Part shown: positions 12,014 through 44,507 of the stretch, one piece after another
Layout of the letters: every line of letters starts with the position of its first letter
How positions within the stretch are numbered: the first letter of the stretch is position 1
Assembly (NCBI GenBank): GCA_946405625.1
Contig: CAMJHQ010000027.1
Span: 1-46,235, forward strand
DNA length: 46,235 nucleotides
Source of the DNA: an uncultured Lachnospiraceae bacterium
Lineage (GTDB): Bacteria > Bacillota > Clostridia > Lachnospirales > Lachnospiraceae
Reading direction: 5' to 3'
Notes under the pieces: generated by a model
Seen by the model: the letters and a program-made list of their open reading frames with translations, nothing else
Databases searched by the model: none
Told to the model about the DNA's origin: nothing
Program-made: the position numbers and the translations under genes

Positions 12014-12070
12014 TGTACCCCTCCGATCGTTAATAACTTCACCCTTTACCAATACGAATTACAACATATT

Positions 12071-12079
12071 ATTTTACCA
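12071..12079 (-). promoter_or_regulatory. Candidate extended -10 promoter for ppk1
   Basis: On the minus strand TGG-TAAAAT forms an extended -10 element about 58 bp before the chosen ppk1 start. No convincing -35 hexamer is present. The preceding terminator at 12125-12174 means the ppk1 transcript needs its own promoter in this gap. Confidence 0.4.
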
Positions 12080-12124
12080 CATAATTTACTCATCTTCCAG
12101 TTAACTTCTTTATATGAATTCTTT

Positions 12125-12174
12125 TTAAAAACGTGAAAGAGGAACCGATAACCTTAGGTTAATCGATTCCTCTC
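12125..12174 (-). terminator. Terminator after the heptad-repeat lipoprotein gene
   Basis: Arms at 12138-12153 and 12158-12174 form a ~16-bp hairpin with a 3-4-nt loop, directly after the stop at 12180. On the minus strand a short spacer precedes a run of T (GTTTTT). Confidence 0.75.
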
Positions 12175-12179
12175 TCTGA

Positions 12180-14777
12180 TCATCTATCTGAATTTACACC
12201 GTCTGTCTTTATGATAAATGTAACGCTTCCCTTCATCTTATCAGACTTACCGCCAAACGACTGATAATCGTAGCCTGACTGTCTGAGTTCGTTGATCCTC
12301 TTGGTAAGGGTATTTACATCCATTTCCTTTTCTTTCAGTTTATCCATTATCTCATTCGTAGCATCATCCAGCTTTTTGCTTCCGTCAACAAGCTCCGGAG
12401 ATGCGGCACTGAGTTTATCCGATCCCTCTTTAAGCTGTGTAGTACCGGCATAGAGCTTTGCTGAACCTTCACTCAAAGCATCCGCTCCGCTGCTGAGTGT
12501 TCCGAGTCCCTGATGAAGAGTATCAGCACCTTCGGACAGCTGTCCGAGACCGTTCGTAACCTGAGACGAACCGTCCTTTAGAGCACCGGCTCCTTCCTTA
12601 ACAGCCTTTGCGCCGGTCTTCAGCTTTGCATTATTTCCTGTAAGTGTATCAAGCCCGTTATTAAGAGTATTTATGCCGCCCTTAACCTGGCCTGCTCCTG
12701 TCTTAAGCTGTCCTATTCCTTCATTCATCTTTCCCGCACCGTCTTTAAGCGCCTTTGAATTGTTATCAAGTGTTCCGAGTCCCGAGCTCAGATCATTTGC
12801 ACCCTCTGCGAGCTGTCCGACTCCGGAATACAACTGTTTTGCTCCCGCACTCAGGTTCTCTGCTCCCGACTTCAACTGAGATACTCCACCGTTAACAGCT
12901 TCCTCATAACCGAGAACTGTTCCCAGAGCACTGTCTGCTCCATAAGCCTTGCTGTATTCCGCAAGTTGAGCGCTGTAAGTATTTACTGCCTGTGATGCGC
13001 CGATCACATTTTCATTTCCAGCTGCCGCCTCTGCTGCTGCAGCTGCTGCGGATGCTGTAGCATCTGTAGGTGATGCTCCCGAATCTATAGCCGCCTGATA
13101 TGCCTCCGGAAATACTGAAGCATATACCTGACTGTATGCACTTGAATAAGAATCAGATGCCGATTTAACCGCATATTTCAGGTTTTCTATATTCTCCTCT
13201 GTTGGTGTTCCGCCTGCACTTGCCTCGATTTCATTCTTCTTTTCATGCAACGCGCTGAACATTCCCGACATCTGAGACTGCATTTCACCGAGTCCCGAAT
13301 CAAGACTGCTTATGCCCTGAACAAGTCCCGGATTCTCAGCACTTTCATTATAAAGTCCCGGCATTATCTGTCCATTGATTGCCGAAGATATCTTGTCTGC
13401 GCCCTTATAAGCACTGTTAACACCTTCAGTATAGTTTTTTATTCCGTTTTCAAGACTGTTTGCTCCACCTTGAAGCTGAGAAGCTCCGGCTTCAAGAGAC
13501 TCGGCGCCTTTGCCAAGCTGCTTTGCACCGCTTGCAGCACTTGATACACCGTTTGTATAATCAGTGATACCCGTCTCAAGCTGAGCTGATCCCTTCTCCA
13601 AGCTGTCTGCTCCGGATGTGATCTTATCCGATCCGTTCTTCGCTGTCTTGATTCCTTCGGACAGCTGTCCCGCTCCCACATCGAGCTGTGCCGCGCCTTT
13701 ACTGAGTTCGCCTGCACCCGAATCAAGCTGTCCCGCACCTGTATCGAGCTGTGCTATTCCATTTCCAAGCTGTACTACTCCGTTTGAATATTCTTCAATT
13801 CCGTCTGTCAGCTTATCCATTCCGCTGCTATACTGAGATGCCATATCATCCAGCGTATCCTCGAGTTCTGATACATTTATCTTATCCTCAGATCCGAACA
13901 TATCTGTTGTTGCAACAGTCATAGCCATATCAAAGTTGAAGCTCTCTGTATCGGCAGTCATTTCGAAATATTCAGGTATCAGCTCCTCATCCTCATCTAT
14001 TCCAAGGCTCTCGGAAAGTCCCGGCATTCCGAGACCGATAACTATATATCTGTCACCGTCCGAAACAACTTTACCGTTCACTGCCTTAACATTGCTGAAA
14101 TTATCGCTGTCGAGTACGAGTCCGGTAGCCATTGAGAAAGGAGTGTAGATATCTCCTTCTTTTGAATTGTTGATATAATCAAATCTTACCGTAACCCTGC
14201 CGCTCTTTCCTGCCAGCTCCTCAGCACTGATGTCCTTTCCGTCAAGCTTATAGCTTACCTTAACCTCTACAGGAAGCTTATCCTCACTTCTTCCCTGATA
14301 AACTATATCCGCACCATCAGCCTGCCAGGTCACCTTATTGCCATTAACCTCACAGGTTTCATAACCGTTCACGTTTTCTATATCCTTGAGTGACGAGTTG
14401 TCATCCAGTACGTCCTTTCCATCCGGATTCTTCAGCCATTCGTTTACTATGACATCAGAAACATTTCCTTCAGCATCTCCGAAGACATATACTGTTTCAT
14501 CCTTCAGGGTCTCAGTCTCTGTCGAACCCTGCTTCTTCAGATTCTTTTCGGAAAATGTACCATCACTATCCATGGATTCACTTAAAATATTTACAAGTTC
14601 CTGTTCATCAGCTTCGAGAGCATCTGCCTCAATCTCACCTGATCCGATTGCTCCGGGCTCGGCTACCGCAGTCTTTACTTCTGCAGTTCCGCAGCCTGAA
14701 ACCGAAATGAGCATTGATACCGCGATCGCATTTGCGAGCATTCTTTTATATAAATTCTTCTTAAACATTTTCATCAT
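12180..14777 (-). CDS. Putative lipoprotein with LxxG heptad repeats, exporter partner
   Basis: The 865-residue protein starts with a lipoprotein signal peptide (hydrophobic stretch, lipobox SVSGC, Cys29). An N-terminal extracytoplasmic domain follows, then a long region dominated by seven-residue repeats of the type GAxQLxxG / GAxxLxxG, interrupted by an Ala/Ser-rich segment. This matches the xxxLxxG repeat proteins (YhgE/Pip-like) often found beside MmpL exporters. The first ATG overlaps the exporter stop. An AGAGAGG ribosome site abuts that ATG, so ATG at 14768 (better spacing) may be the real start. Likely co-transcribed with the exporter gene. Role inferred: long helical extracellular partner of the exporter. 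Confidence 0.87.
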   Translation of the reverse strand: MMKMFKKNLYKRMLANAIAVSMLISVSGCGTAEVKTAVAEPGAIGSGEIEADALEADEQELVNILSESMDSDGTFSEKNLKKQGSTETETLKDETVYVFGDAEGNVSDVIVNEWLKNPDGKDVLDDNSSLKDIENVNGYETCEVNGNKVTWQADGADIVYQGRSEDKLPVEVKVSYKLDGKDISAEELAGKSGRVTVRFDYINNSKEGDIYTPFSMATGLVLDSDNFSNVKAVNGKVVSDGDRYIVIGLGMPGLSESLGIDEDEELIPEYFEMTADTESFNFDMAMTVATTDMFGSEDKINVSELEDTLDDMASQYSSGMDKLTDGIEEYSNGVVQLGNGIAQLDTGAGQLDSGAGELSKGAAQLDVGAGQLSEGIKTAKNGSDKITSGADSLEKGSAQLETGITDYTNGVSSAASGAKQLGKGAESLEAGASQLQGGANSLENGIKNYTEGVNSAYKGADKISSAINGQIMPGLYNESAENPGLVQGISSLDSGLGEMQSQMSGMFSALHEKKNEIEASAGGTPTEENIENLKYAVKSASDSYSSAYSQVYASVFPEAYQAAIDSGASPTDATASAAAAAAEAAAGNENVIGASQAVNTYSAQLAEYSKAYGADSALGTVLGYEEAVNGGVSQLKSGAENLSAGAKQLYSGVGQLAEGANDLSSGLGTLDNNSKALKDGAGKMNEGIGQLKTGAGQVKGGINTLNNGLDTLTGNNAKLKTGAKAVKEGAGALKDGSSQVTNGLGQLSEGADTLHQGLGTLSSGADALSEGSAKLYAGTTQLKEGSDKLSAASPELVDGSKKLDDATNEIMDKLKEKEMDVNTLTKRINELRQSGYDYQSFGGKSDKMKGSVTFIIKTDGVNSDR

Positions 14778-26791: not shown

Positions 26792-28003
26792 TTACTCATA
26801 AATCTCCACGCCGCGGTAACGTGCGATTGCAGCAACGTCCTTGTCGCCTCGGCCGGATATAGTGCAGACAATGATCGAATCCTTCGGCATTGTTGGTGCT
26901 ATCTTCATTACATGTGCAACTGCATGTGAGCTCTCGATTGCCGGAATGATTCCTTCTTCTCTTGAGAGGAACTCAAATGCTTTTACAGCTTCCTCATCAG
27001 TTATCGGAACATACTCAGCTCTTCCGATTGAAGCGAGATATGCATGCTCCGGTCCGATTCCCGGATAGTCAAGTCCTGCTGAAATAGAGTATACCGGAGC
27101 GATCTGTCCGTACTCATCCTGGCAAAAGAGTGACTTCATTCCGTGGAAGATTCCCATAGAACCGTTAGCCATTGTAGCTGCATTCTTCGGATTATCAACT
27201 CCGAGACCGGCAGCCTCACATCCGATAAGTTTTACGCCTTCATCCTTGATATATTCGTAGAAAGAACCGATTGCATTGCTTCCGCCGCCGACGCAGGCTA
27301 TAACAACATCCGGAAGCTTTCCCTCTGCCTCAAGTATCTGAGCACGGCTTTCCTTACTGATAACCGACTGGAAATCTCTTACTATAGTTGGAAATGGATG
27401 CGGTCCCATTACAGAACCGAGTACATAGAGTGTATCGTCAACTCTGTTGGTCCATTCGCGCATAGCCTCATTTACGGCATCCTTCAGAACCCTTGTTCCT
27501 GTTTTAACTGCATGCACCTTGGCACCGAGAAGTTCCATACGAAAAACATTCAGAGCCTGTCTCTCAGTATCCTCTTCTCCCATGAAGATCTCACATTCCA
27601 TATCCATAAGTGCCGCAGCTGTTGCTGTTGCAACTCCGTGCTGTCCCGCACCTGTCTCGGCTATAACTCTGGTCTTGCCCATCTTCTTTGCGAGAAGAAC
27701 CTGACCGAGTACGTTGTTGATCTTGTGTGAACCTGTATGATTCAGATCCTCTCTCTTCAGATAAATCTTTGCACCGCCGAGATCTCTCGACATTTTTTCC
27801 GCATAATAAAGAAGTGACGGACGTCCGGCATATTCGCGGTTCAGCTTATCCAGCTCCGCAACAAATTCAGGATCATTCTTATAATGCTCATATGCCGCCT
27901 CAAGTTTATGGATTTCGTTCATCAGAGTTTCTGGAATATACTGTCCTCCGAATTCTCCGAAACGTCCTACTACTTTGTCTGAATAATTAGTATTTTCGCT
28001 CAT
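26792..28003 (-). CDS. trpB: Tryptophan synthase beta chain
   Basis: The 403-residue PLP enzyme joins indole and serine to make tryptophan. The PLP lysine is in HTGSHKINN (Lys94), with ETGAGQHG and the phosphate loop GGGSNAIG downstream; length and sequence are typical of the TrpB1 class that pairs with TrpA. The start overlaps the trpF-GNAT stop by 4 bp (ATGA). Unusually, its TrpA partner is not next to it: a second trpD-trpC-trpF set of about 2.5 kb separates them. Confidence 0.97.
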
Positions 28004-29172
28004 ATCTTCTTACCTTTCTTTTCCATATATACAAACTCCAGCTCATCACTGATAACTTTGCTGTCATATATTTCATATCCGCATTTTTTATACAGGGAAA
28101 TGTTATCAATACTCCTCGTACTTGTAAAGAGTTCATATCTTTTTCCCGGATAATATTTTTCTATTTCCGAGAGAAGCGTCTTCCCGTATCCCCTTTTCTG
28201 TCTGTCAGGATGAACCATCAGCTTTCCTATATACAGGGTACCGTTTTCTTCGTATGCACGTACCGAACCGATTATCCTGTTTCCCTCAACCAGCTTCAGA
28301 ACAGTTCCCCTTTCAAACTCTTCTTCAAGTTCTTCAAGTGTTTCTCTGAGCGGAGGGATGTCTCTGTTCTTAAAGAGATCGGCCTCACTCTGATATGCGA
28401 GATACTGAAGTTTCAATATCTGCCCGAGGTCCTCTCTCTCTGCCTTGGAAATGCAGCACATTTCTTCATCCGTCTCTCTTACGATACCGACAAACCTCTT
28501 CATCTTCTCGATGTCTTTAAGCTTATCTGTTTCCACTCCGGAGCTTACATCCAATCCATAGGGATGTATATTTTCAATTGCCGACTTAGCATTATCCGGT
28601 CCCAATCCGCCTGCCAAAATGTATGGCCTGCGTATCTCCTTCAGCTTGTTCCAGTCAAAAGTTTCACCCGAACCTGTTCCGGAATCGACCAGTACAAGAT
28701 CTGCCACCGAAGCATCTATTTCCGAAATATCATGGATCTTATTTATATTGAATGCCTTGATGATTCTGATCTTATCTCCTGAAGTTTTATCTGATTCTGA
28801 CTTGTCCGCTCCCGGCTTGTATGCTTCATAATTTTCATCTGAACTTTTATCATACGAAGCATCCTCATTGCCGCATATCAGCTGTCTCAATTCTTCTATA
28901 TAAATGTTATCTTCATCACCGTGAAGCTGTGCTATATCGATGATTCCTTCATTAAGAAGCTCTGCCACAAAGGAAACATTTTCATTAACAAAGACACCAA
29001 CTGCTTTGATCTCCCGACTGAGCTTTTCTTTCAGCTTTGCTGCCGTTTCCTTATTCACATACCGATGACTGAAATCCGCAAATACAAATCCTATATAATC
29101 GGGACGAAGTGCATTTGCAGCTTCAATATCTTCTATTCTTTTTAAACCGCAAATTTTAATCTTCGTCATCAA
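28000..29172 (-). CDS. trpF: Phosphoribosylanthranilate isomerase fused to a GNAT acetyltransferase
   Basis: The 390-residue protein has TrpF at residues 1-235: [48 protein letters not shown] and GLDVSSGVE. It is intact apart from a hydrophilic Asp/Ser/Lys-rich insert (about 102-132). Residues ~240-390 form a GNAT N-acetyltransferase domain with the acetyl-CoA loop [11 protein letters not shown] and the [10 protein letters not shown] end motif. The two domains are in one frame with no internal ribosome site noticed. TrpF isomerises phosphoribosylanthranilate; the GNAT substrate is unknown. It lies 122 bp after trpC and overlaps trpB by 4 bp. Confidence 0.9.
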
Positions 29173-31825: not shown

Positions 31826-32899
31826 TTATTCAAATGTAAACATTTTATAATTCGCATTGCTCTCATCATCATGAGCACCGATCATAAACTCAGCATACGA
31901 AATAACGACTGTATCGAAATCATTTTCAAGAATATACTTTTTTAAATCAAAATCCTCTTCACAATCTCTTAGTACAATCGGTTCCACACGATGAACACCT
32001 AATGCCAAAAACGGAGCAACCACATTATCATAAGAGTCACAAAGCAGAAGTATATTTCCACTTTCGATTTTGTTATTTACAGTACCGTATCTTCGATATG
32101 AATAATGCCAGCTTGGGCCTCTCCCGGTTGATTGATAAACATCTTCGTTAATAAAATAATCAAATGTATCAGTCTTACTTTTTTTGGTATCAGGCTCAAA
32201 AATAAAGCTTGTATCATAATTAGGCTTCAATTCCGTGTAATCATCCAGTCCCACATAAGATTCGGATAGCAGTGCTCCCTGTTCACCCAGCCAGCAATTT
32301 TCCCATTCATTCACACTAAAATTCTCAATATCCAGTAGTGAAGTATCGATACTGTATCCATAATCAGCATTTAATTTATCTGCTATTTTATTTGAAGCCC
32401 ACAAACCTGCTTTGACCGTCCAATGATGATCGGTTCTGTAAAACAGGTCTTCGCATGAAATGTTTTCCAGACGCATATTATCTCTAAGATCAATATAATC
32501 AATACCTGCATCATTGATTCTTTTTAAAAATTTATCTGCATTTCTGTTACAATATGAATCATATCCAAAGTTATCATAAAAAAATGTATCATCATTATAC
32601 TTCGTGGGCTTATTGACATATAACAATCCCACATTGTTTTCTTTCAAAAACTCATTGAATGATATTAATTCATTATATTCATAATCTGTTGAAGTCTCAT
32701 TAGCCGGACTTACTATATACTTATCATCTGTTATAAAGACTCCTCTATCACCATAATAACTATTTACCTGAAGTATACTCAGAAATCCTCCGTTAACATC
32801 TAAAAATACATGTCCATAATGGCCAATAACAAGTTTGCCTGTTATAAAAAACAATAACAGCAACGCCGCAAAAGTCAATTTTATTTTATTATTCTTCAT
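31826..32899 (-). CDS. DHHW/SGNH-like membrane-anchored protein
   Basis: The ~357-residue protein has one N-terminal transmembrane helix (about 7-25) and an extracytoplasmic domain with the DHHW motif YRTDHHWTVKAG (157-160) and a GDS-like serine motif LLLCDSYDN. DHHW proteins are related to the AlgJ/AlgX group that works with MBOAT proteins in O-acetylation of exported polysaccharides. The frame extends upstream, but ATG 32897-32899 has a TAGGTG ribosome site and starts 8 bp after the MBOAT stop. It is the last gene of the cluster. AT-rich relative to the kinase genes upstream. Confidence 0.87.
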   Translation of the reverse strand: MKNNKIKLTFAALLLLFFITGKLVIGHYGHVFLDVNGGFLSILQVNSYYGDRGVFITDDKYIVSPANETSTDYEYNELISFNEFLKENNVGLLYVNKPTKYNDDTFFYDNFGYDSYCNRNADKFLKRINDAGIDYIDLRDNMRLENISCEDLFYRTDHHWTVKAGLWASNKIADKLNADYGYSIDTSLLDIENFSVNEWENCWLGEQGALLSESYVGLDDYTELKPNYDTSFIFEPDTKKSKTDTFDYFINEDVYQSTGRGPSWHYSYRRYGTVNNKIESGNILLLCDSYDNVVAPFLALGVHRVEPIVLRDCEEDFDLKKYILENDFDTVVISYAEFMIGAHDDESNANYKMFTFE

Positions 32900-32907
32900 A
32901 TTCACAC

Positions 32908-34296
32908 CTAAAAGTTCCCATATAAAAATGGATTGTTCTGTCCTGATACTATAAATGAAATTGCTAATACAAACCCAGCTACTGCAACCAAGCAATAGAT
33001 TAAATCATATATTGTTTTTAATGCCTTTCTGTTCTCAAGCTTATTTTCAATATACGGAACAACAGGGAAACAAAAAATAATAGCAGCTATAATAAACACA
33101 CAATAATCACTTAATAACAAGAATGCTCTTTTATCTGCAATATGATTTGATGTGCCATTTAACATCTTAATTATGTAAGAAATACCGTACGAAGCATCCT
33201 TTGCTCTGAACATAACCCATTCAAAAATGATAAATACCAGGACCAAAATTCTATATACGCTTTTTCCAAATATAGTTTTAATCCTATCAGAAATTTTTAC
33301 TATTCTTTCAAATGAAATCAGGATAAAATAACCCATTCCCCAAATTATAAAATTCCAGGCCAGTCCATGCCACATACCCGTAAGAAACCACACAACAAAC
33401 AGATTAAAGAATGTCTTATACTTCCCTTTTCTCGAGCCACCGAGCGGAATATAAACATAATCCCTAAACCATTCACTTAACGATATATGCCATCTTTTCC
33501 AGAATCCAGAAACCGTTTTCGTCATATATGGATAATTAAAATTTTCTTTGGATTTAAAACCTAAAAACTCCGTAATGCCATTCGCCATATCAGAGTATCC
33601 GGAAAAATCATAAAAAAGCTGAAGTGAAAAACAAATCGCTCCAAGCCATGCGTAAATTGTTGACAGATTGTCCACAGATGTACTAAATATTTCTTTAACA
33701 ATTTTAGCCAAAACATCAGCTATAACAATCTTTTTACAGAATCCGACAGAGAATTTAAATATTCCCGAAACTCTATATTTCCATATATCTTCTTTATCTT
33801 TTATCTTTTCAAAATCGCTGTATCTAGCTATCGGTCCTGATTGAAGCTGCGTAAAAATTGATAGATACTGCACATCATGTAACGGATTATCATCCAATGT
33901 TATTTTTTCATAATATACATCAATAAGATAAGAAATTGATTTAAATGTTAAAAAAGATAAACCAAGCGGCAATAAAACAGATTCTTTAAACGTCCCTAAA
34001 AATTTAAATCCTGTCAACATGCCAACATTAAATATAATACCCAAGAAAAATAATAATCGTCTGTTCTTATTATCCTTATTTGCTATTTTTCTTCCAATCA
34101 AAACATTTAAAAATATGCAGATGGCAAAAAAGAAAAGATGATTTATATCACATACAAAATAAAAAAGATAACTAGCTATCAGTAATACAACATCTTTAGC
34201 AATTCCTTTAAAAATCAAGGATGCTATTAACACAACCGGTAAAAACATAAAAATAAAATCCAGATCAGTAAAACCGGAAAAATGCATAAAATTCAT
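32908..34296 (-). CDS. MBOAT-family O-acyltransferase (AlgI/DltB-like)
   Basis: The 462-residue polytopic membrane protein has about ten helices and AlgI-type signatures: FYDFSGYSDMA (229-239), FWKRWHISLSEWFRDY (265-280), and the catalytic histidine in WHGLAWN (His310). AlgI-like proteins pass acetyl groups across the membrane for attachment to polysaccharides outside the cell. It lies 5 bp after the kinase-DegV gene and 8 bp before the DHHW gene, so all three are likely co-transcribed. The substrate is unknown; teichoic acid D-alanylation is unlikely since no dlt partners are present. Confidence 0.93.
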   Translation of the reverse strand: MNFMHFSGFTDLDFIFMFLPVVLIASLIFKGIAKDVVLLIASYLFYFVCDINHLFFFAICIFLNVLIGRKIANKDNKNRRLLFFLGIIFNVGMLTGFKFLGTFKESVLLPLGLSFLTFKSISYLIDVYYEKITLDDNPLHDVQYLSIFTQLQSGPIARYSDFEKIKDKEDIWKYRVSGIFKFSVGFCKKIVIADVLAKIVKEIFSTSVDNLSTIYAWLGAICFSLQLFYDFSGYSDMANGITEFLGFKSKENFNYPYMTKTVSGFWKRWHISLSEWFRDYVYIPLGGSRKGKYKTFFNLFVVWFLTGMWHGLAWNFIIWGMGYFILISFERIVKISDRIKTIFGKSVYRILVLVFIIFEWVMFRAKDASYGISYIIKMLNGTSNHIADKRAFLLLSDYCVFIIAAIIFCFPVVPYIENKLENRKALKTIYDLIYCLVAVAGFVLAISFIVSGQNNPFLYGNF

Positions 34297-34301
34297 ATTG
34301 T

Positions 34302-36992
34302 TTAAAATTCCTTTCCTCTTTCAACTTCTCTGAACAGAAGTCCAAAGGTTCCCGGACCGCAGTTTGCCGCAATGGCAGGTGATGCCTGAAGGAAGAAGAT
34401 TTCATCGAATTCTACCTTTTTCTCAATCTGCTCTCTGATCCAGTCCATCTCACGTTTTGTTATACCCACATAGGTTACGAAGAGCATCCTCTTATCAATC
34501 CGTGATGGTGTCCTGAGAGCTTCATTAATGTATTTCTTCCAAGCATCCTCTCTGGATCCGACATGTATCCTTCCGACCTTCATATTTCCTTTCTTCAGGA
34601 CTACAACAGGTCGAAGCATAAATGACTTTGTAATATTTGCAATCCGCTGACTTACCTGTTTTGTTCTTGCAAGGAAATCCAGATTGTCAACGATAAAGCT
34701 TGTATGTATAAGTTTTTTCTCACGTTCAAGTCCTTCAAGAATTTCCTGAACGCTCTTTCCTTCTTCTGCCATCCTGCACGCAGCTATCGCCATAAGTCCC
34801 TGTCCGCTCGAAAGATGCTGCGAATCCACTACCGATACATTTTCGAAAGCAGCTGCCGCTTCCTTGGTTACAGGATATCCGCTATGCTGAATAACACTTG
34901 AAATTGAGATATGTACGATATTATTAGCATAAGCCATTTTATCAGCAAAGAAGCTTTCAACTTCTTCTATTTCAGGTGCCTGCGGCTGAACTATGTTATC
35001 CGGCTTCTGCATATACTTCAGAACGCCTCTGGTATCAATATCAACTCCGTCCTTGAATACACCTTCCTTAGTAACAACCTTATGTGGAATAACAGAAATA
35101 TCATATTTCTTCCTTATCTCGTCCGGGAGATCGGCAACACTTTCAGTTGTTATAACAACCTGCTTTTTGCTCTGACTCTTATTCATCCAGGATATAGTCT
35201 CTTCCAAGATTTCTCCGTTATCGCCTGTAACGAAAACCAGATTCGACGGAAGTGCTTTCATAAGCTCCGATTCAAGCTCCGCACCGGTTACAGGTTTTGT
35301 CAGATAACCGTCAAAGCCTTCCTTCTGATATAACTGTCTGCTTTCCTCATCCGCATTTGCCGTAAGTATTATAACCTTTGCTTCCTTACTGACACCGCCG
35401 ACCTGATTTCTGATTCTCTTGAAGCACTCTATTCCGTCCATTCCCGGCATCAGATGATCCATAAAAATCACATCATACTTCGAATTAATAGTCTTCTTAA
35501 GTGCAGCTTCGCCGCTTGATACAGTATCTATCTGAACCTTAGTATCTCTGAGAAGCTTTGATACCACCAGAAGATTCGATGCATTATCATCAACAACCAG
35601 AACCTTCGCTTCCGGAGCCTCAAACTTCTGCTTATAACCTATGAGCCTGTTGATCGAATGTTTCTTCTCCAGATCAACCTCACCTATAAGCTTTTCGCCT
35701 GATATTCCCTGCGGAATCTCTATACTGAAGGTCGATCCCTCCATATAAACGCTGTTTACCTTTACCGTTCCGCCCATAAGGTCTACAAGGCTCTTTACTA
35801 TCGCAAGTCCGAGTCCCGTACCCTCTATATGCTGGTTATCTCCTTCATCAACTCTCTTAAATGCAGTAAAGAGATAAGGAATGTCCTCTTTCTTTATTCC
35901 TCGGCCGGTATCAGTTACCGTATAAACTATAGTCTGCTTATCTTCCACTCTGTGTCCGCACTGAACAGAAAGAGTTACAGAGCCTTCCTTCGTATATTTA
36001 ATAGCATTATTGATCACATTTATGAGTATCTGCTTGATCCTGACCTCATCTCCGATAAGTTCCGCCGGAACATCGGGTGCGACATTCACATGAAATTCCA
36101 GCTTCTTATCCTTCGCTCTGAGCCAAAGCATTCCGACAAGCTCTGACAGCATATCCCCCGGATTATATGGTGCGATATTCAGCTGCATACTTCCGGATTC
36201 AAATTTAGACATATCGAGAATATCATTGATCAGACTGAGCAGCATCTTACTTGCCGAACGTATATTGGCAGCATCCTCTGCTACCTCATCGGAAATGTTT
36301 TCTCTGAGGATCATTTCATTAAGACCGATAATCGTATTTATCGGAGTTCTGATCTCATGACTCATACTTGAAAAGAAACGCCCCTGCGAAGCGTTGAGCG
36401 CTTCAGCTTCAGCCTTATGCTTCTCGGTTCGTATGCTTTCCCTGATATAAAGCTTTATCTCAAGTCCGACCATCAGGCTTACCGCAGTGCCCGTAAGAAG
36501 CAGTGCGATAAGTGAATAGAAATGTGCCATCATATCCGTATTTTGAAGTATCCACTCAGGATGTGTAAACCCAAGATAATAACATACCACCGCTAAAATC
36601 GCTTCAGCTATAAGGAAGAAAACCTTCGTCTTTCCGGCGAGAATCATGCTCATAAACAGCACTGAAAAAAGGAACCATACCGGTGCATCACCGTATACAC
36701 CTCCTCCCCAAAAGAAGGTCATCGGTACATAAACAAACCCCATCAGTATCGATTCAATAATAGATGCAAGCCTTATCTTATTATACTTAACAGATAGAAC
36801 CGCCAAAAAAATGGTAAATATAAATCCGACCACAAGAAGTATGGTATTAAGATAAGATGTATCCGTAAAAACCACTTCAAGAATAGTGATAAACATCGCA
36901 ACGAGCGTAATAAAAACAGTCAGGACATACAGCCTCTTCCTGATATGTGTATTTTCATCATACAGTTTATCCCTCAGTTTATCTAAATTCAT
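34302..36992 (-). CDS. Hybrid histidine kinase with C-terminal DegV domain
   Basis: The 896-residue protein has six or so N-terminal transmembrane helices (about 22-180), HisKA with SHEIRTPINTIIGL (His212), HATPase_c with NVINNAIKYT, DTGRGI and GTGLGL, a receiver domain (about 462-580, phospho-acceptor Asp512 in FMDHLMPGMDG) and a complete DegV-like domain (about 610-896). DegV/FakB proteins bind a fatty acid for phosphorylation by FakA. Here N-terminal DST is TES, and the HxGPG motif near the end is NCGPG, so binding may differ. A kinase joined to DegV suggests lipid sensing or delivery linked to the phosphorelay; this is inference. It is 60 bp after the HPt hybrid kinase and 5 bp before the MBOAT gene. 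Confidence 0.9.
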   Translation of the reverse strand: MNLDKLRDKLYDENTHIRKRLYVLTVFITLVAMFITILEVVFTDTSYLNTILLVVGFIFTIFLAVLSVKYNKIRLASIIESILMGFVYVPMTFFWGGGVYGDAPVWFLFSVLFMSMILAGKTKVFFLIAEAILAVVCYYLGFTHPEWILQNTDMMAHFYSLIALLLTGTAVSLMVGLEIKLYIRESIRTEKHKAEAEALNASQGRFFSSMSHEIRTPINTIIGLNEMILRENISDEVAEDAANIRSASKMLLSLINDILDMSKFESGSMQLNIAPYNPGDMLSELVGMLWLRAKDKKLEFHVNVAPDVPAELIGDEVRIKQILINVINNAIKYTKEGSVTLSVQCGHRVEDKQTIVYTVTDTGRGIKKEDIPYLFTAFKRVDEGDNQHIEGTGLGLAIVKSLVDLMGGTVKVNSVYMEGSTFSIEIPQGISGEKLIGEVDLEKKHSINRLIGYKQKFEAPEAKVLVVDDNASNLLVVSKLLRDTKVQIDTVSSGEAALKKTINSKYDVIFMDHLMPGMDGIECFKRIRNQVGGVSKEAKVIILTANADEESRQLYQKEGFDGYLTKPVTGAELESELMKALPSNLVFVTGDNGEILEETISWMNKSQSKKQVVITTESVADLPDEIRKKYDISVIPHKVVTKEGVFKDGVDIDTRGVLKYMQKPDNIVQPQAPEIEEVESFFADKMAYANNIVHISISSVIQHSGYPVTKEAAAAFENVSVVDSQHLSSGQGLMAIAACRMAEEGKSVQEILEGLEREKKLIHTSFIVDNLDFLARTKQVSQRIANITKSFMLRPVVVLKKGNMKVGRIHVGSREDAWKKYINEALRTPSRIDKRMLFVTYVGITKREMDWIREQIEKKVEFDEIFFLQASPAIAANCGPGTFGLLFREVERGKEF

Positions 36993-37052: not shown

Positions 37053-39710
37053 TCATTCTTCCGGTAAGAATTCAAGAATTTCATCATCTTCATCAGAAGT
37101 ATTCTCTCCGATTTCCGAACCATATACGGAGTCTTCTCCTTCAGCCTCCGTTACCGCATCTGCTTCCACACCGCTGCCTTCTGCAGCATCACCGAAACCC
37201 GTGCCTCGAACCGCAGTTCCGACAACACCCAGTATTCTCACCAGTTCTTTCATAACATCCTCATGATGTTTTTCTATATAATCTCCTCTATTCTCCTTAG
37301 CAGCCATTTCAAGTTCGCGTGCTCCGTCAGAAAGTTCAAGGAAACCGTTCATTTTGGAAGTACTCTTAAGTGAATGCACAAGAATCGCATAATTAGCATA
37401 ATCCTTTTCATCACGGTATTTATTCATCTCATCGAGTCTTTCCCTCATATCGGTTAAAAACTGTTCGAGAAGAGTCTTATAGAAATCCTTGTCATTCTGA
37501 CAATAATGAAGCCCGGAAACCGTATCAACTCCGGCAGCCTCAAGAATCGAAATAAAATCCGAACTATCAGTCCCGTCATCTCCTCCGGCACTTTTAACCG
37601 TACTCTCAGAATCCATTGAAGCTGATACATCCTCACCGTACTCTATCTCAACTTCGTCATTTTCATAAGTGATCAAATGTTTCGGCAGTGCTTTCTTTAT
37701 CGCTCTCTCAAGCTCTTCTATTTCAATCGGTTTGCTGACAAAACCGTCAAAGCCCTCATCAAGAAACATTTTCTTTGCAGTACTCATTGCATTTGCCGTA
37801 AGTGCAATAACCGGTATTTCTTTATTGACTCTTGCGGCATCCGCCTTGATGCGCTTCATTGCCTCGATACCATCCATACCGCGCATCATATGATCCATAA
37901 ATACCACATCGAAATCCATATTCTTACACAGCTCGATCGATTCAGGTCCGGAAGCCGCCGTTGTTACAAGCATTCCGTATCTCTTGAATATACTTCTGGC
38001 AACGGTAAGATTCATAGGCTCATCATCAACAACCAGAGTTTTTACGCCCTTAAGCATCATACGTTCCCGAACGATAACATCTTCGTTATCCATATTGAGA
38101 ATCGTGGTAACAGGGAAACAGTAGAAAGGTTTCTCAAGAATCCTTGCATGCGAATTCTCCGGCAGCTTAAATGGACTGTCCGCAACCACGGCAACGATCA
38201 TGGTCTTTGCAAGCTCTTCAAGAAGTTCCTTGCAATCCATATACTCTTCTTCCGCGACAAAAAGATGCGTAAGATTTACCGAATCGGAAAGTTTCTTCAG
38301 ATTCTCCGGATTATCCACCCTATGCATCTGTATACCAAGGCCGCTCACTATATTGAGAACCATTGAATTATAATACTCTCTTACGTTTGGATGAGGATAT
38401 TTATCGAAATGTAAGAATGCTCCTACGCACAACCTATCTCTTTTCTTAAGTGACATACAGCTTGAAGGATCTATCACCTTCTGCGGAATACTGACATGAA
38501 CAGTAGTTCCCACATCGGGCTTACTTGAAAGCGTCATGAATCCCCCAAGCTCGGAAACAAATCCCGATACTATCGACATACCGAGTCCGAGTCCTCCGCC
38601 CGAACGGGTTCTTCCGGAATCAACCTGATAGAAGCTTTCGAATATTCGTTCTGTTTCCTCTACTGTCATTCCTATACCCGTATCTGTTACCTCGATCCGA
38701 AGATTTACTCCGTAATCCTGAGGTTCGGAGGTGATACGCACATATACACCGCCTGCCTGAGTAAACTTAAGACCGTTTGAGATAAGAGCCTTAAGTATCT
38801 TCTTCAGTTTATTTACATCCGTATTCATAACTGACGGAATAGCCGGATCTACATCTATGATAAGTTCAAGCTCCGGAGTTTTATAAGCTCTTATTTCGGT
38901 TACCAGATCATTAAGAACCGAAGACAGCATATAATCTTCTGAATTAAGTGCAAGATCATCCCTGTCTATCTCAGAATAGTCGAGAATATCCCCTATCTGC
39001 TCCGATACTCTGTGGCCGGCATCTCTGACTTCTTCCATATCTCTGCGGATGTCCGGATTTGTTTCCTTGTCTATGCATATTCCGGTCAGTCCTATTATGG
39101 CATTTACCGGAGTTCTCAGCTCATGCGAAACATTTGCAAGGAAATCATTCAGTCTCTTAGTTGAATCAGTAAGGCTTTCGACCTCTTCCTTGGATTTATT
39201 GAGAAGTCCGCTCCATCTGTCGATTATCGCCCTTGAGAAATGGCATATCATGAATATCATGGCAAGATGAAGAAGTATCCTTGTTATCATCAGAACATCA
39301 AATTTGACGCCATTCAGAAACATCTGAACGATCTCATATGTCATCGTTGCATAATAAGTAAACTGACATAGAGATATAAGCCCTTTGATACCTGACAAGG
39401 TATAAAAGACAAGGAGTACGGCCATTACAATAGCCAGATCAAATGTACTGCTTTCGTGGATTCCGTAAAAGAAAAATGCAGTCATAAGAAGAATCGAATA
39501 TGTCCATATTTTTGCATAATGAGACATATTATTTCTGACATGTATGCCCCAGCATGAGAGCACGCCAATAGCAAGCAGAAAAAGCGCCCATCTTTCCCAG
39601 TGAAGAAGAACAGCTTCAATTCCGAGCACAATTGCAAAAGCAGTAAATGTTATGAGGATGATCAAAGTTGAATTCTGAGCTAATTCTGTATTATCATCTC
39701 TGCCGTTCAT
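37053..39710 (-). CDS. Hybrid histidine kinase with receiver and HPt domains
   Basis: The 885-residue protein has about six transmembrane helices (10-160), HisKA with VSHELRTPVNAIIG (His196), HATPase_c with DTGIGM and GGGLGLGMSI, a degenerate receiver-like region without phospho-acceptor (about 425-540), a true receiver (about 555-675, Asp606 in FMDHMMRGMDG) and a C-terminal HPt domain (about 715-830, His779 in LVHSLKSTS). The acidic tail 835-885 is low complexity. The full His-Asp-His chain suggests a phosphorelay output to a separate regulator, perhaps the REC-GGDEF protein encoded 17 bp upstream. An AAAGGAT ribosome site supports the start. Confidence 0.92.
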   Translation of the reverse strand: MNGRDDNTELAQNSTLIILITFTAFAIVLGIEAVLLHWERWALFLLAIGVLSCWGIHVRNNMSHYAKIWTYSILLMTAFFFYGIHESSTFDLAIVMAVLLVFYTLSGIKGLISLCQFTYYATMTYEIVQMFLNGVKFDVLMITRILLHLAMIFMICHFSRAIIDRWSGLLNKSKEEVESLTDSTKRLNDFLANVSHELRTPVNAIIGLTGICIDKETNPDIRRDMEEVRDAGHRVSEQIGDILDYSEIDRDDLALNSEDYMLSSVLNDLVTEIRAYKTPELELIIDVDPAIPSVMNTDVNKLKKILKALISNGLKFTQAGGVYVRITSEPQDYGVNLRIEVTDTGIGMTVEETERIFESFYQVDSGRTRSGGGLGLGMSIVSGFVSELGGFMTLSSKPDVGTTVHVSIPQKVIDPSSCMSLKKRDRLCVGAFLHFDKYPHPNVREYYNSMVLNIVSGLGIQMHRVDNPENLKKLSDSVNLTHLFVAEEEYMDCKELLEELAKTMIVAVVADSPFKLPENSHARILEKPFYCFPVTTILNMDNEDVIVRERMMLKGVKTLVVDDEPMNLTVARSIFKRYGMLVTTAASGPESIELCKNMDFDVVFMDHMMRGMDGIEAMKRIKADAARVNKEIPVIALTANAMSTAKKMFLDEGFDGFVSKPIEIEELERAIKKALPKHLITYENDEVEIEYGEDVSASMDSESTVKSAGGDDGTDSSDFISILEAAGVDTVSGLHYCQNDKDFYKTLLEQFLTDMRERLDEMNKYRDEKDYANYAILVHSLKSTSKMNGFLELSDGARELEMAAKENRGDYIEKHHEDVMKELVRILGVVGTAVRGTGFGDAAEGSGVEADAVTEAEGEDSVYGSEIGENTSDEDDEILEFLPEE

Positions 39711-39727: not shown

Positions 39728-41080
39728 CTATCTGCTAACAGGTCTCTCTCCCATAGAAACAAGGCTTGCTTCATAAGTGATCTTAAGCTTATTTCCTTTT
39801 TCTTCATACCATTTATTTATAAGATTATCCGCAACCATATTATATGAATCTTCCCTGACCTCTGTCAGAAAAACAAAATATTGATTGTTGCGGCCCCTCA
39901 TAAAAATGTCCGATTTACGAAGAGAATCTTTGATGTGATTACCGAACTCATCACACATTTCATTATAATATGCATCATCAATCTCAGGATTCTCATTTAT
40001 AGTAAAGAGAATCTTGCAGGCAGTCCTGCTGTTTCGGAGATTATATCTCATAACATATCTGTATACATAAGCAAATACATCCTTGTCGAGCTGAAGCGCA
40101 ACATTCGGGATTGAACGTTCCCCGAGTATCTCGGAAATGGTATCTATATCCATCATACCACTTATATCATCATCTGCATTTGCCGCATCGCTATAAAGAA
40201 GGTAACCGTGTTTGCCGTTCTTCTTTACGTTATAGAGTGCCTTGTCCGCCAAAGCCAGCAGCATTTCATAATCAGTTCCGTACTTAGGAACCAGGACTCC
40301 GCCCACAGAAACGCCGAGAGGAATATCCATATCCTCGCCCATAAGCCTCTTTGCTTCAGCAAGCATCTGTTCATTAAGCCTTTCTGTAAAATCCCTAAGC
40401 TGATCTTCCGTCTCATATCCGTATACAAATGCCGTAAATTCATCTCCTCCAACACGGCCGGCCCGGCTTCCTTCAGTGATATTTGCATTTATTATATTTG
40501 CAAATGCAATAAGAACCTTATCGCCCATATCATGTCCGTAGATGTCATTTACCAGCTTAAATGAATCCAGATCTATCATCATAAGCATTCCTGAGTTTGT
40601 ACTGCAATACTTCGAAAAAACAACTCCCGTTGCGCCCTTGTTAAGAAGGCCCGTGAGCTGATCGATGGATGCTTCACTCTTGAGATTCAGCATCTCATCT
40701 CTTTTGGATACAATACTCTTTATTCTCATAAGCAGAACATCCGGGTTAAACGGCTTTCTGATATAATCTGAAACTCCCATCTCAAATCCTCTGCTTTCAG
40801 AGCCGACCGCCTCATCGGCTGTAAGGAAAATGACCGGAATTTCTTCTATATCCAGTTCCTTCTCCTTCTCTCTCAGACGGGTAAGTGTCTCAAAACCGTC
40901 CATTTCAGGCATCATAATATCAAGCAGAATAAGATCGGGCCTATTTCCTTCACCGATATAATTGATCAGTGCTTTTCCCGACTTAAGACAGGTAACTCTC
41001 ATCTGATTTTTACTGAGAATATGACCTGCAATCTTGAGATTAGACATATCATCATCTACAACAATAATCCACTTAGCCAT
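39728..41080 (-). CDS. Response regulator diguanylate cyclase with degenerate second GGDEF domain
   Basis: The ~450-residue protein has a receiver domain (1-122; Asp54 in LILLDIMMPEMDG, Lys109 in RKPF) and a GGDEF domain (about 138-300) with intact RVGGDEF at 211-215, which makes cyclic di-GMP from GTP. The RxxD inhibitory site five residues before GGDEF is absent. Residues ~315-440 look like a second, inactive GGDEF-like domain, with GRNNQYFVFL in the signature position. ATG at 41078-41080 has a GGAGGG site; the upstream ATG at 41095 overlaps that site. A terminator lies just upstream. Confidence 0.92.
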   Translation of the reverse strand: MAKWIIVVDDDMSNLKIAGHILSKNQMRVTCLKSGKALINYIGEGNRPDLILLDIMMPEMDGFETLTRLREKEKELDIEEIPVIFLTADEAVGSESRGFEMGVSDYIRKPFNPDVLLMRIKSIVSKRDEMLNLKSEASIDQLTGLLNKGATGVVFSKYCSTNSGMLMMIDLDSFKLVNDIYGHDMGDKVLIAFANIINANITEGSRAGRVGGDEFTAFVYGYETEDQLRDFTERLNEQMLAEAKRLMGEDMDIPLGVSVGGVLVPKYGTDYEMLLALADKALYNVKKNGKHGYLLYSDAANADDDISGMMDIDTISEILGERSIPNVALQLDKDVFAYVYRYVMRYNLRNSRTACKILFTINENPEIDDAYYNEMCDEFGNHIKDSLRKSDIFMRGRNNQYFVFLTEVREDSYNMVADNLINKWYEEKGNKLKITYEASLVSMGERPVSR

Positions 41081-41100
41081 AAATACCCTCCGCATGACTT

Positions 41101-41140
41101 CGTATAAAAAACGAAAAGCACCTCTCTCGGGGTGCTTTTC
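41101..41140 (-). terminator. Terminator between HD-GYP and GGDEF genes
   Basis: Arms GAAAAGCACC (41113-41122) and GGTGCTTTTC (41131-41140) pair perfectly over 10 bp with an 8-nt loop; six T follow on the minus strand. It lies 20-25 bp before the GGDEF gene start, so the next gene has no separate promoter after it. Confidence 0.9.
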
Positions 41141-41169: not shown

Positions 41170-42408
41170 TTAATCCATATCAACAACTGCCGCGTAATAT
41201 CTTGCACCTTCTTTACTGGTCTCAGATTCTCTCTTCTGATATATATCATCATAATTTGCGATCATAAGATCGACGATATATTTGGAAAGTGCCGATGATT
41301 CAACATACTCACGCAGCGCATATATAACCTGTTCTTTGGACATACCGTCACGGTAGGAACGTATTTCGGCAACCGCCGAGAAAATGTCCGCTACTGCAAT
41401 GATACGTGCTCCCATTGGGATATCATCCGCCTTAAGTCCGAATGGATATCCATAGCCGTTAAGCTTCTCATGATGGAGTGCAGCCCATCTTCCTATCTGC
41501 TCAAATCCGGTTATGTCCTTCAGCAGAAGTTCAGTATAATATGCATATTCCTTAACTATATTAAATTCTTCATCAGTAAGCGCATCCTTCTTCTCAAGTA
41601 TCTTCTTCGGAACCTTGAGCTTACCGATATCATGTATATATCCGGCAACCATCATCATCTTGCATTCATCTTCGGACATACCGAGAATTTCGGCAAGTCT
41701 TACAGCTGTAGCTGCAACACCTGACGAATGCATTGCCGTATATTGGCTTCTGAAGTCGATTATTCTCGACATAAACTTGGCTATCTCGATCAGCTGATCA
41801 AGCGTAACCACATTTGCATTTGATATTGCATTAAGACATATCTCAGGCTGATGAAGCAGCTCGAGCCACACAAATTCCTTGCTTGATGTTCTGAGAAATG
41901 CTTCCACAACTTCAGAATGTATCTCTTCATCCGCATAATCCGAAATCGTATCACATATATCCTCTGACTGATTAAGTGCAGCCGCATCAGGATCTATAAG
42001 CATAGATATCTTATCTGCAAGATATATGATCTCTGCAAAAATCGCTTCCTTTGAAAGCTCTGCAAATGCCGGTCTTTCCGCAAAAGGAACCTGATATGCT
42101 GACAAAATATCCTTGACAAACTTCATGTTTGCAATGTCACCTATAAGGCTTATTCCCGCCTGACTCATTTCACTGAGTGTATATTCACCCACCTCGCGTT
42201 CAGGCATGATGACCGAACCCATATCGTGCATCAAAGCACCATAAATGATTTCCCTTCTGTCATCAAGGCTATACCCCATTTCATCAGCTATTCTCCATGC
42301 TACATAAGCAACCTGCTGATGATGATTTTCAATCTTCGGGCTAACAAGATTCATGGCTCTTCCGAAGCATCTTGCGAGATCCCGCATATTAGTAATTGCT
42401 TTCTCCAT
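41170..42408 (-). CDS. Tandem HD protein with C-terminal HD-GYP phosphodiesterase domain
   Basis: The 412-residue protein has an N-terminal HD-like domain (His29, HD at 61-62, then ADK near 131) and a C-terminal HD-GYP domain with YIHDIGKLKVP (259-263) and HHEKLNGYGYP (to 322), followed by AVADIF. HD-GYP proteins hydrolyse cyclic di-GMP. The metal and GYP residues appear complete. No receiver or membrane domain is present, so its input is unclear. A GGGGAGGA ribosome site and a candidate promoter precede it. It sits next to a cyclic di-GMP-making protein with a terminator between them. Confidence 0.92.
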   Translation of the reverse strand: MEKAITNMRDLARCFGRAMNLVSPKIENHHQQVAYVAWRIADEMGYSLDDRREIIYGALMHDMGSVIMPEREVGEYTLSEMSQAGISLIGDIANMKFVKDILSAYQVPFAERPAFAELSKEAIFAEIIYLADKISMLIDPDAAALNQSEDICDTISDYADEEIHSEVVEAFLRTSSKEFVWLELLHQPEICLNAISNANVVTLDQLIEIAKFMSRIIDFRSQYTAMHSSGVAATAVRLAEILGMSEDECKMMMVAGYIHDIGKLKVPKKILEKKDALTDEEFNIVKEYAYYTELLLKDITGFEQIGRWAALHHEKLNGYGYPFGLKADDIPMGARIIAVADIFSAVAEIRSYRDGMSKEQVIYALREYVESSALSKYIVDLMIANYDDIYQKRESETSKEGARYYAAVVDMD

Positions 42409-42495: not shown

Positions 42496-43908
42496 TTACT
42501 TTTCCGTTTTTAACTGGCCTGAAAGCACCTTTCCGGCCTTCTTCAACCAGCTGTATTTTTCTATGACGATGCAGTCTTCACTCGATACTCTCTGACTCGG
42601 CTGTGCCGTTATATCACCCAGCGCAGTATAATCCGCTGTACTGACAAGCCAGTCTCCAAACTGTTGACAGAACATTGCACCCTCTTCCTGCTCGTTACTG
42701 TATTCCTTGAAATCAAAAGGAATTATATATTCTCTATCCTGATAGCCTATTGCCAGAAAGAGTGTATGCTTCTTGGAATCTATATTCTCGAGCGGTATCA
42801 TAGCCGTAAAGCTGTAATCCTTAAAGGACACTGATCCGAAATACTCTTTCATCCTGCCCTTATCGTTAAATGTGATCTCTACACGCTTGTCATCAAGCAT
42901 CATATAGTAATCAAAGACATCCTTGTCAAATGCATCCGTAAATGAACATTCGAGACGGAGATATCCTTCCTCAAACTCTATAGTATGAACTGTTGCAACG
43001 AGCATATTTGATGAATATACCGGAACATCGTTCATCATAAGTCCCAGACCGGAAAGTCTGAGATTTCTTCTGTCGAGAGGATACATTTCACTAAAGGATC
43101 CGATAAGTGCAGTATTTTTGGCATTGATCGGTTCGATACTTCTCATCTTTGTTCTCTGAGGTCTGACCTCAACAAGAGGAAGGCTGTGTCCGTACTTCAT
43201 GAAGAGCATCATCCTTCTGAACTGATATTCTTCCGTATAGGTCGGGAACTCGAAGCATTCCATGATGACTTCGTCATCAACAAAACTGAGTATCTCTCTT
43301 GCCTTATCAAGTATCTCCTGCGTTGCGTTCTCTGAGAACTTCCTGTCTGCTTCTCCGCCGATATTGGCATCCATTCTGCATTTCAGATAATACATCACGT
43401 AAAACTGATACAGAACCGGAAGCTTTCCGTCATTTACAGTGCTGATATCATGAATGAGCTTCATAAGAAACTTATCCATATCCTCCAGATACCAGTCTAT
43501 ATTCCTGTCAGGAAGTGTCTTTCTGAGATCCCTGTCCTCCGATTCAGCCTGTATAAAACCAAGCTCCGGCATAAGAAGGAAATTCTTCCCCGAGATCATT
43601 CGAAGTAAGAAGTCAGCTTCATAATTAAACTTTAACTCCTTATTCATCCTGAACTTCTCAGCCGCAGAACGTCTCATTATCACTCCCTCAATTCTTTCAG
43701 GGAACTGATACAGCTTCTTCGGAACAACAAGTACCGCATCCTGATTATTAAGAAGAGCAGCTATCGCCTTTTCCTGAACTGTGTCATCCATCTTGTTGCC
43801 TTCACACAAAACGACGATATATTCAGCTTCACTGTTTGAAACAGTGTTGTTGAATTCTTCAATAAAGCTGTCTCTGTCTTTTTTGATAATAATATCCAAA
43901 TTATCCAT
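42496..43908 (-). CDS. Unknown protein, possibly related to glycosyltransferases
   Basis: Not firmly recognised (about 470 residues). The N-terminal part (EYIVVLCEGNKMDD, QDAVLVVPKKLYQFP) recalls degenerate family 2 glycosyltransferase or polymer-modifying proteins of Firmicutes, without a DxD motif. The middle is helical. The last ~200 residues alternate beta strands (VATVHTIEFEEGYLRLEC) and resemble a beta-sandwich accessory domain. No signal peptide or membrane helix is seen. The frame opens with a TTG at 43929; ATG 43906-43908 is more likely, though its ribosome site is weak. It lies 87 bp before the HD-GYP gene. Confidence 0.7.
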   Translation of the reverse strand: MDNLDIIIKKDRDSFIEEFNNTVSNSEAEYIVVLCEGNKMDDTVQEKAIAALLNNQDAVLVVPKKLYQFPERIEGVIMRRSAAEKFRMNKELKFNYEADFLLRMISGKNFLLMPELGFIQAESEDRDLRKTLPDRNIDWYLEDMDKFLMKLIHDISTVNDGKLPVLYQFYVMYYLKCRMDANIGGEADRKFSENATQEILDKAREILSFVDDEVIMECFEFPTYTEEYQFRRMMLFMKYGHSLPLVEVRPQRTKMRSIEPINAKNTALIGSFSEMYPLDRRNLRLSGLGLMMNDVPVYSSNMLVATVHTIEFEEGYLRLECSFTDAFDKDVFDYYMMLDDKRVEITFNDKGRMKEYFGSVSFKDYSFTAMIPLENIDSKKHTLFLAIGYQDREYIIPFDFKEYSNEQEEGAMFCQQFGDWLVSTADYTALGDITAQPSQRVSSEDCIVIEKYSWLKKAGKVLSGQLKTEK

Positions 43909-44035
43909 AACCGCTTCATTATAACCCAAATTACAGGATTTGCAACTAAATATTCGATTTTAAACGGCTCAAAACACGACATATAGTTAATTTTCGTATA
44001 AAGTGCCGAATTTACATAGCATTATTCGCAATTTA

Positions 44036-44044: not shown

Positions 44045-44118
44045 GTTCCAGTGTTACAATTCACAGTTTTATGGAAAAGCAATTAGTAAGATTGCTTACA
44101 CCACATCATGGCATGATG

Positions 44119-44229
44119 CAGCTTCTTCGCGACTTGATGGAGCTTCTTCGCGACTTGACGCAGCTACTTCGCGACTTGATGCAGCTACTTCGCGACTTGA
44201 TGCAGCTTCTTCGCGACTTGACGCAGCTT
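44119..44229. repeat. 21-bp tandem repeats upstream of the cyclophilin gene
   Basis: Five full units and part of a sixth, starting at 44119, 44140, 44161, 44182, 44203 and 44224, each CAGCTTCTTCGCGACTTGAT with small changes. The unit contains TCGCGA and is a multiple of three, so two plus-strand frames stay open. One frame (44071-44370) would give a 99-residue peptide with the heptad LLRDLMQ, but there is no ribosome site. The rest of the 43909-44507 gap holds only the possible promoter. Confidence 0.9.
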
Positions 44230-44507
44230 TCATGCAAATATCAATTAGCGAATTGGCTACATTCTAGTCTGTTGGTCGACTGCAGTTTAGCGGATTATAA
44301 TCCGGTGGATCAGCTATCTTTTTTGCTGGCTAGTGTTGCTTTGTGGATTAAAATCAGGTTGATTGGATAACTGTTTTGCTGATCGACTTCTATAGTTTCC
44401 TTGAACATATTGGTCAGCATAGCAATCCAAGGATATGTGAGCTCATCAAAAATCAAAAAACACGAATTTGTAACAACATTATAAATATGAAAATGAGGTA
44501 AATAATT

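Follow-up and report, generated by a model that had tools for sequence, protein, structure and literature searches.

DegV proteins, hybrid histidine kinases, and phosphorelays are each well known. To our knowledge, only a few direct receptors for lipids have been described in bacterial signalling, and most hybrid kinases of gut bacteria have no known signal. DhaQ of Lactococcus has a regulatory role. The FakB/DegV fatty-acid-binding proteins include FakB1 of Staphylococcus aureus, DegV of Bacillus subtilis (structure 3fys), and a Thermus thermophilus protein (2dt8). Passages of PMC8892158 and PMC9136124 place His270 of FakB in the fatty-acid carboxylate network and describe Arg173 as needed for the FakA reaction and Arg205 as serving in docking to FakA and to the membrane; part of PMC10146087 is a further source on FakB. 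Fatty acids and histidine kinases also meet in the SaeRS system of S. aureus with FakA/FakB, a membrane histidine kinase system that is restrained by cellular fatty acids, as described in part of PMC5539427.

In this study, we analysed a stretch of 46,235 nucleotides, referred to throughout as the window, from an uncultured Lachnospiraceae bacterium. It contains a hybrid histidine kinase fused to a DegV domain, together with a second hybrid kinase. This combination appears to be undescribed in the open-licence literature: among the papers found by searches of an open-licence library, most of them judged by title and abstract, none appears to describe a paired-kinase DegV system, and the portions of PMC12688256, PMC3146951, PMC9912610, and PMC3533761 that name DegV mention no fusion.

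Architecture and recurrence of the fusion gene

The fusion gene and the domains that it encodes are as follows.

34302..36992, minus strand: HK-REC-DegV fusion gene, 896 aa, no internal stop
36444..36944, minus strand: N-terminal membrane segment, residues 17-183, about six hydrophobic stretches (Kyte-Doolittle scan)
36192..36386, minus strand: HisKA domain, residues 203-267, Pfam 63.4 bits, with the putative phospho-acceptor H212 in SHEIRTP
35709..36053, minus strand: HATPase_c domain, residues 314-428, Pfam 96.2 bits, with N, G1, and G2 boxes
35268..35603, minus strand: Response_reg (receiver) domain, residues 464-575, Pfam 87.2 bits, with D512 and K566
34332..35159, minus strand: DegV domain, residues 612-887, Pfam PF02645, 145.6 bits

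All four Pfam domains score well above their respective cut-offs. The DegV match spans profile positions 2-277 of 280 (cut-off 27 bits), and the same domain reaches 160.6 bits against TIGR00762, whose cut-off is 99.7, which makes it a member of the DegV family. Therefore, the original prediction of a kinase, a receiver, and a complete DegV domain on one membrane chain is confirmed by Pfam and the Kyte-Doolittle scan, and the motif changes that it pointed out are indeed present (TES at 616-618 and NCGPG from N877). The chain is a hybrid histidine kinase, carrying the HisKA histidine, the HATPase N and G boxes, and the receiver aspartate and lysine together; its best NCBIfam matches, BarA and TorS, both lie far below their cut-offs. 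H212, D512, and K566 are invariant across 24 aligned proteins (alignment A2), and the N, G1, and G2 boxes are invariant or nearly so. A pattern search of 66 of the 70 distinct fusions, those of at least 850 aa, gave the same picture for the HisKA histidine (66/66), the N box (66/66), G1 (61/66), G2 (65/66), and the receiver aspartate (65/66) and lysine (66/66).

The fused arrangement is widespread. Within the genus, DegV matches of at least 241 bits lie inside frames of at least 741 aa in 34 of 61 genomes, the window's own included; a strong match lies in a shorter frame in three further genomes (G027, G012, and G036), and a fragment at the edge of a contig in a fourth (G043). In the family, 348 genomes were sampled, and at least 55 of them together hold at least 78 places with open frames of at least 480 aa, figures that are lower bounds, as part of the candidates were scored. 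Frame length by itself is not proof of fusion, because the 27 long-frame places that were fetched comprised 25 HK-REC-DegV proteins, one DegV-Hpt protein (L080), and one stand-alone DegV (L079). Outside the family, the class sample yielded three fused-length frames, all in family f45 and in three genomes (L070 and L071 among the loci), and a single 580-aa frame in family f38 (G440), while in the phylum sample (E 1e-38) three of 398 genomes had long frames, each belonging to the window's family and one being the window's own; since these searches likewise scored part of the candidates for the window's DegV query, other fusions may have been missed. Those relatives that have a name bear titles such as Lachnospiraceae, Clostridiales, Oscillospiraceae/Ruminococcaceae, and Saccharofermentans, and come mostly from rumen or gut. 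A frameshift joining two genes, one of the two outcomes that the original prediction named as refuting it, is ruled out, as is an assembly join, by the recurrence of the fused frame in dozens of genomes of the genus and the family.

A partner kinase and the single Hpt domain

Upstream of the fusion gene the window carries a second hybrid kinase.

37053..39710, minus strand: partner membrane hybrid kinase, HK-(middle region)-REC-Hpt, 885 aa (Pfam)
37281..37472, minus strand: Hpt domain of the partner, PF01627, 35.8 bits

Its occurrence was followed through 74 fused loci, 70 of them distinct at 97% DegV-domain identity, with flanking genes scored by BLAST against the window's domains. Of the distinct fused loci, 67 offer at least 800 nt of upstream sequence, and each of these has a second hybrid kinase, whole or cut, immediately before the fusion gene on the same strand. 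The partner is a frame of at least 650 aa in 63 of these, the pieces (L048, L053, L068, and L121) being associated with contig ends or broken frames; in L112 the whole partner is present upstream. For comparison, a hybrid kinase precedes the DegV gene in two of 33 stand-alone loci and a plain kinase adjoins it in five, in a control set that is non-random (ten close relatives or similar picks, twenty from the genus, and three with other loci). Kinase linkage as such is therefore not special to the fusion, as five of the 33 stand-alone DegVs adjoin a plain kinase.

It is noteworthy that the pair holds a single Hpt domain whose position changes. One Hpt per pair was found in 65 of the 67 loci, carried by the partner in 58 and by the DegV chain in seven, and no locus has one on both chains, with L048 and L072 excluded from the count. 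In the seven long-type loci (1093-1162 aa), the Hpt lies behind the DegV domain and the partner stops after its receiver; Pfam gave the same result for the five long-type pairs submitted to it (L062, L065, L066, L069, and L078), namely an Hpt on the DegV chain and none on the partner. As for the two excluded loci, L048 has a broken-off fusion piece upstream and a REC-Hpt piece beyond it, and the L072 partner (10707-13226, minus strand) has no Hpt by BLAST or Pfam. The tail of the L072 partner resembles an Hpt without the histidine, and a separate REC-Hpt protein lies nearby, possibly reflecting a move of the Hpt to a third chain. Other combinations of the same parts also occur: L080 and L081 are DegV-Hpt proteins without a kinase (the Hpt of L080 being under the Pfam cut-off), and in L087 and L091 a free DegV adjoins an HK-REC-Hpt protein. 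In L055, L063, and L066, the pair is preceded by one more hybrid kinase, which has an Hpt of its own; this suggests larger signalling arrays.

An Hpt is thus available to the fusion's receiver, on the partner in the window and once per pair in 65 of the loci. Because there is a single Hpt and the chain that carries it varies, the simplest reading is that the two chains constitute one phosphorelay, the parts of which are split differently over two proteins. The sequences indicate that both kinases retain most or all of their catalytic motifs. In the partners, the HisKA histidine was recognised by pattern in 58 of 60, and a strict G2 pattern missed 38 of 60, nearly all of these 38 having GLGL/GIGL-type variants (no variant is listed for L065, L122, L124, L125, and L126). 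We considered that one kinase of the pair might be dead, and degeneracy is not claimed, as the strict-G2 misses are mostly such variants.

These observations also bear on whether the DegV domain could be a chance fusion that drifts without function. The divergence inside the group of hybrid-kinase-linked DegV domains is large and some motifs vary, as such drift would allow; against it stand 36 columns that are invariant in an alignment of 27 sequences, the spread over at least 55 of the 348 family genomes (by frame length), and the retention of the partner in 67 of 67 loci with the one-Hpt rule in 65. We regard a functionless passenger as highly improbable.

The DegV domain and its relatives

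The predicted model of the isolated DegV domain has a mean pLDDT of 90.5 and the EDD-type two-domain DegV fold, complete over 276 aligned residues. In a structure search, it came closest to fatty-acid-binding DegV/FakB structures, with 2dt8 and FakB1 among its matches, and its best 29 VIA structure rows are DegV/FakB-type entries; the DhaQ structures 2iu4 and 2iu6 were matched as well. Residues that FakB needs for its work as a carrier have been replaced. By alignment, the FakB1 positions His270, Arg173, Arg205, and Thr62 correspond to N877, Q779, V811, and P670 of the fusion. His270 is kept in none of 75 hybrid-kinase-linked DegVs versus 23 of 27 unlinked ones, Arg205 in one versus 26, and Arg173 in 14 versus 25, counts that lack independence because most of the changes represent few events within one clade. 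The replacement of His270 is non-random, with asparagine in 67 of the 75 linked domains (and in one of the 27 unlinked); at the Arg173 position, 46 of 52 core members have glutamine, as does the window (Q779). With all three residues replaced, a role as a FakA carrier is unlikely, and we rejected it on this ground; their loss in the kinase-linked clade supports the earlier suggestion of a sensor rather than a FakA carrier.

Two further positions gave no clear rule as diagnostic sites. Thr62 is represented by threonine or serine in 25 of 64 fusions of about 900 aa and in seven of seven of about 1140 aa, and the assignment of Ser95 is uncertain because of a one-residue insertion in the alignment. 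At the position of FakB1 Ala121 in the tunnel, again mapped by alignment alone, the window has leucine, as do 43 of 52 core members and nine of 27 stand-alones; this residue may narrow the pocket or tunnel. The core members also share two polar residues that are absent in unlinked DegVs, H637 (conserved in 48 of 52) and H726 (45 of 52).

What the domain does in place of carrying fatty acids for FakA may be explained in two ways. The main rival to a sensing role, which we consider rather unlikely, is that DegV is a ligand-free docking or dimerisation module that keeps the DegV-side receiver near the Hpt, and that signal input occurs at the membrane segments of both kinases. The loss of FakB's ligand residues is what this would lead one to expect, and the DegV domain does adjoin the Hpt, covalently so in the proteins of about 1140 aa and in the DegV-Hpt proteins. 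However, a domain without a ligand accounts poorly for the non-random replacement of His270 or for the completeness of the fold, and H637 and H726 are polar residues of the kind expected of a binding site, even if a docking surface could also explain them. For these reasons (the complete fold, the non-random change of His270 to asparagine, and the conserved H637 and H726), we favour a ligand receptor, and a regulatory, probably ligand-sensing module fits the comparative data best. It is the membership of the DegV family that points to a lipid; the ligand is probably a lipid or another amphiphile, which would be held without the His270 and Arg173 of FakB.

In the tree of DegV domains, all 75 hybrid-kinase-linked DegVs form one clade (support 100/99), with nine stand-alone DegVs as its sister group. 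Two free, kinase-adjacent DegVs branch first within the linked clade; as the split between them and the rest has a support of 89/69, the order from free to fused is only suggested. The tree was midpoint-rooted for drawing only. Nineteen rows, including the f45 genomes and many of the named relatives listed above, form a branch with support 100/96 that is nested within the radiation of the window's own family. Such nesting suggests transfer between rumen bacteria, and horizontal transfer of the fusion among them is likely on this topology. Most of L026-L043, together with L047, L070, and L071, represent a tight fusion branch of rumen Saccharofermentans-type bacteria, with a few rows titled Lachnospiraceae.

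Neighbouring genes, proposed function, and comparison with known systems

The genes on either side of the kinase pair are the following.

41170..42408, minus strand: HD-GYP-type protein, putative c-di-GMP phosphodiesterase (HD_5, 124.3 bits)
41113..41140, minus strand: intrinsic-terminator-like site, 10-pair stem and T tail, between the HD-GYP and REC-GGDEF genes
39728..41095, minus strand: REC-GGDEF protein, putative diguanylate cyclase response regulator (Pfam), first gene of the likely transcription unit
32908..34296, minus strand: MBOAT acyltransferase (Pfam), 5 nt downstream of the fusion gene
31826..32995, minus strand: AlgX-like SGNH protein (Pfam)

The partner kinase, the chain-changing Hpt, and the c-di-GMP genes are all points absent from the original prediction. 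A gap of 17 nt separates the REC-GGDEF gene from the partner gene downstream of it, and the HD-GYP gene probably belongs to a separate transcription unit; the terminator-like site between the HD-GYP and REC-GGDEF genes is a consensus match only, eight such sites having been found in the scanned region versus 6.4 in shuffles. Upstream sequence of at least 4.2 kb is available for 56 distinct fused loci; a GGDEF or HD-GYP gene is nearby in 36 of these and absent in the other 20, and is thus a common, not a universal, neighbour; the corresponding figure for stand-alone DegV loci is three of 33, with flanks mostly shorter than those of the fused loci. Beyond the HD-GYP gene, a 477-aa protein is encoded at 42496-43929 (minus strand), with no Pfam match at E 0.001, and a short frame of LLRDL-type repeats at 44071-44370 (plus strand) is probably a tandem DNA repeat and not a gene.

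On the downstream side, the original prediction had offered, as one of two options, that signalling governs the supply of lipid to the neighbouring genes for O-acylation. Neither MBOAT nor AlgX has a match at E 1e-5 in 108 other loci (L024-L131, 74 of them fused, with varying flank lengths); downstream of the fused gene, the nearest relative (L024) has trp genes. As judged from this comparison, the O-acylation neighbours are local to the window, and we rejected a functional link as unsupported. The trp cluster of the window itself includes a TrpF (PRAI) protein with a C-terminal GNAT acetyltransferase domain (28000-29172, minus strand; Pfam).

The same evidence weakens the second option of the original prediction, in which the DegV domain still binds a fatty acid and passes it on, the kinase thereby controlling lipid use, e.g., for O-acylation. 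The idea draws on a fold that is that of fatty-acid-binding proteins, on the start of the MBOAT gene 5 nt after the fusion gene, and on a Dak2-domain gene (FakA- or DhaL-type) in the window's genome. However, that genome also encodes a separate stand-alone DegV with canonical motifs, MBOAT and AlgX are unmatched elsewhere, and Q779 and V811 take the places of Arg173 and Arg205, the latter gone in 74 of the 75 linked domains (roles as given in the cited parts of PMC9136124 and PMC8892158). We therefore think such a hand-on very unlikely.

The reading that we prefer, and to which we give somewhat better than an even chance, is that the fusion makes up the regulatory half of a membrane phosphorelay split over two chains, in which DegV serves as a receptor module, not a carrier, and c-di-GMP is the output. 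The HK-REC-DegV and HK-REC-Hpt proteins, their motifs intact, would act as a pair sharing the single Hpt and would pass phosphate to receivers such as that of the adjacent REC-GGDEF protein; were phosphate to reach it, the output at this locus would be the level of c-di-GMP. The DegV domain, no longer a fatty-acid carrier for FakA, would be a cytoplasmic receptor whose ligand alters the transfer from REC to Hpt or the balance between kinase and phosphatase. A wider proposal, which we advance tentatively as possible rather than probable, is that the kinase-linked DegV clade represents a new class of intracellular lipid receptor: former carriers that sense the state of the membrane lipids and set c-di-GMP through a two-kinase phosphorelay, widespread in Lachnospiraceae and passed to rumen Saccharofermentans-type bacteria. 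From a practical point of view, a single soluble DegV domain is an expressible unit in which ligands can be tested. The constant single copy of an Hpt that changes chains is, moreover, strong genetic evidence for treating the two adjacent hybrid kinases as a single relay.

Compared with the FakB/DegV carriers, the DegV of the window differs in being fused to a histidine kinase and a receiver and in the replacement of His270, Arg173, and Arg205; the linked clade is separate from the stand-alone DegVs compared, save for the two kinase-adjacent free ones. BarA/TorS-type hybrid kinases share with the fusion the HisKA-HATPase-REC core and an Hpt in the system, whereas the window has a kinase pair with one Hpt for both chains and a DegV domain behind the receiver. 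SaeRS offers a precedent for a kinase system restrained by fatty acids; there, FakB is a separate carrier, in contrast to the DegV domain within the kinase chain of the window, and we know of no DegV domain in the SaeRS kinase.

Closer in gene content are the REC-HK-DegV triplets of five genus genomes (L094, L095, L096, L098, and L099), in which a stand-alone DegV lies directly downstream of a response regulator and histidine kinase pair, an arrangement that we take to resemble the degSU-degV gene order of B. subtilis. As in the fusion, DegV is genetically coupled to a histidine kinase and His270 is lost (0/5). However, the triplets consist of separate proteins with a plain kinase, and their DegVs belong to another clade and keep Arg173 (5/5); at the Arg205 position they have lysine. 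Finally, DhaQ of Lactococcus offers a precedent for a kinase-substrate-binding fold turned regulator, and the same path is proposed here for the DegV domain of the window.
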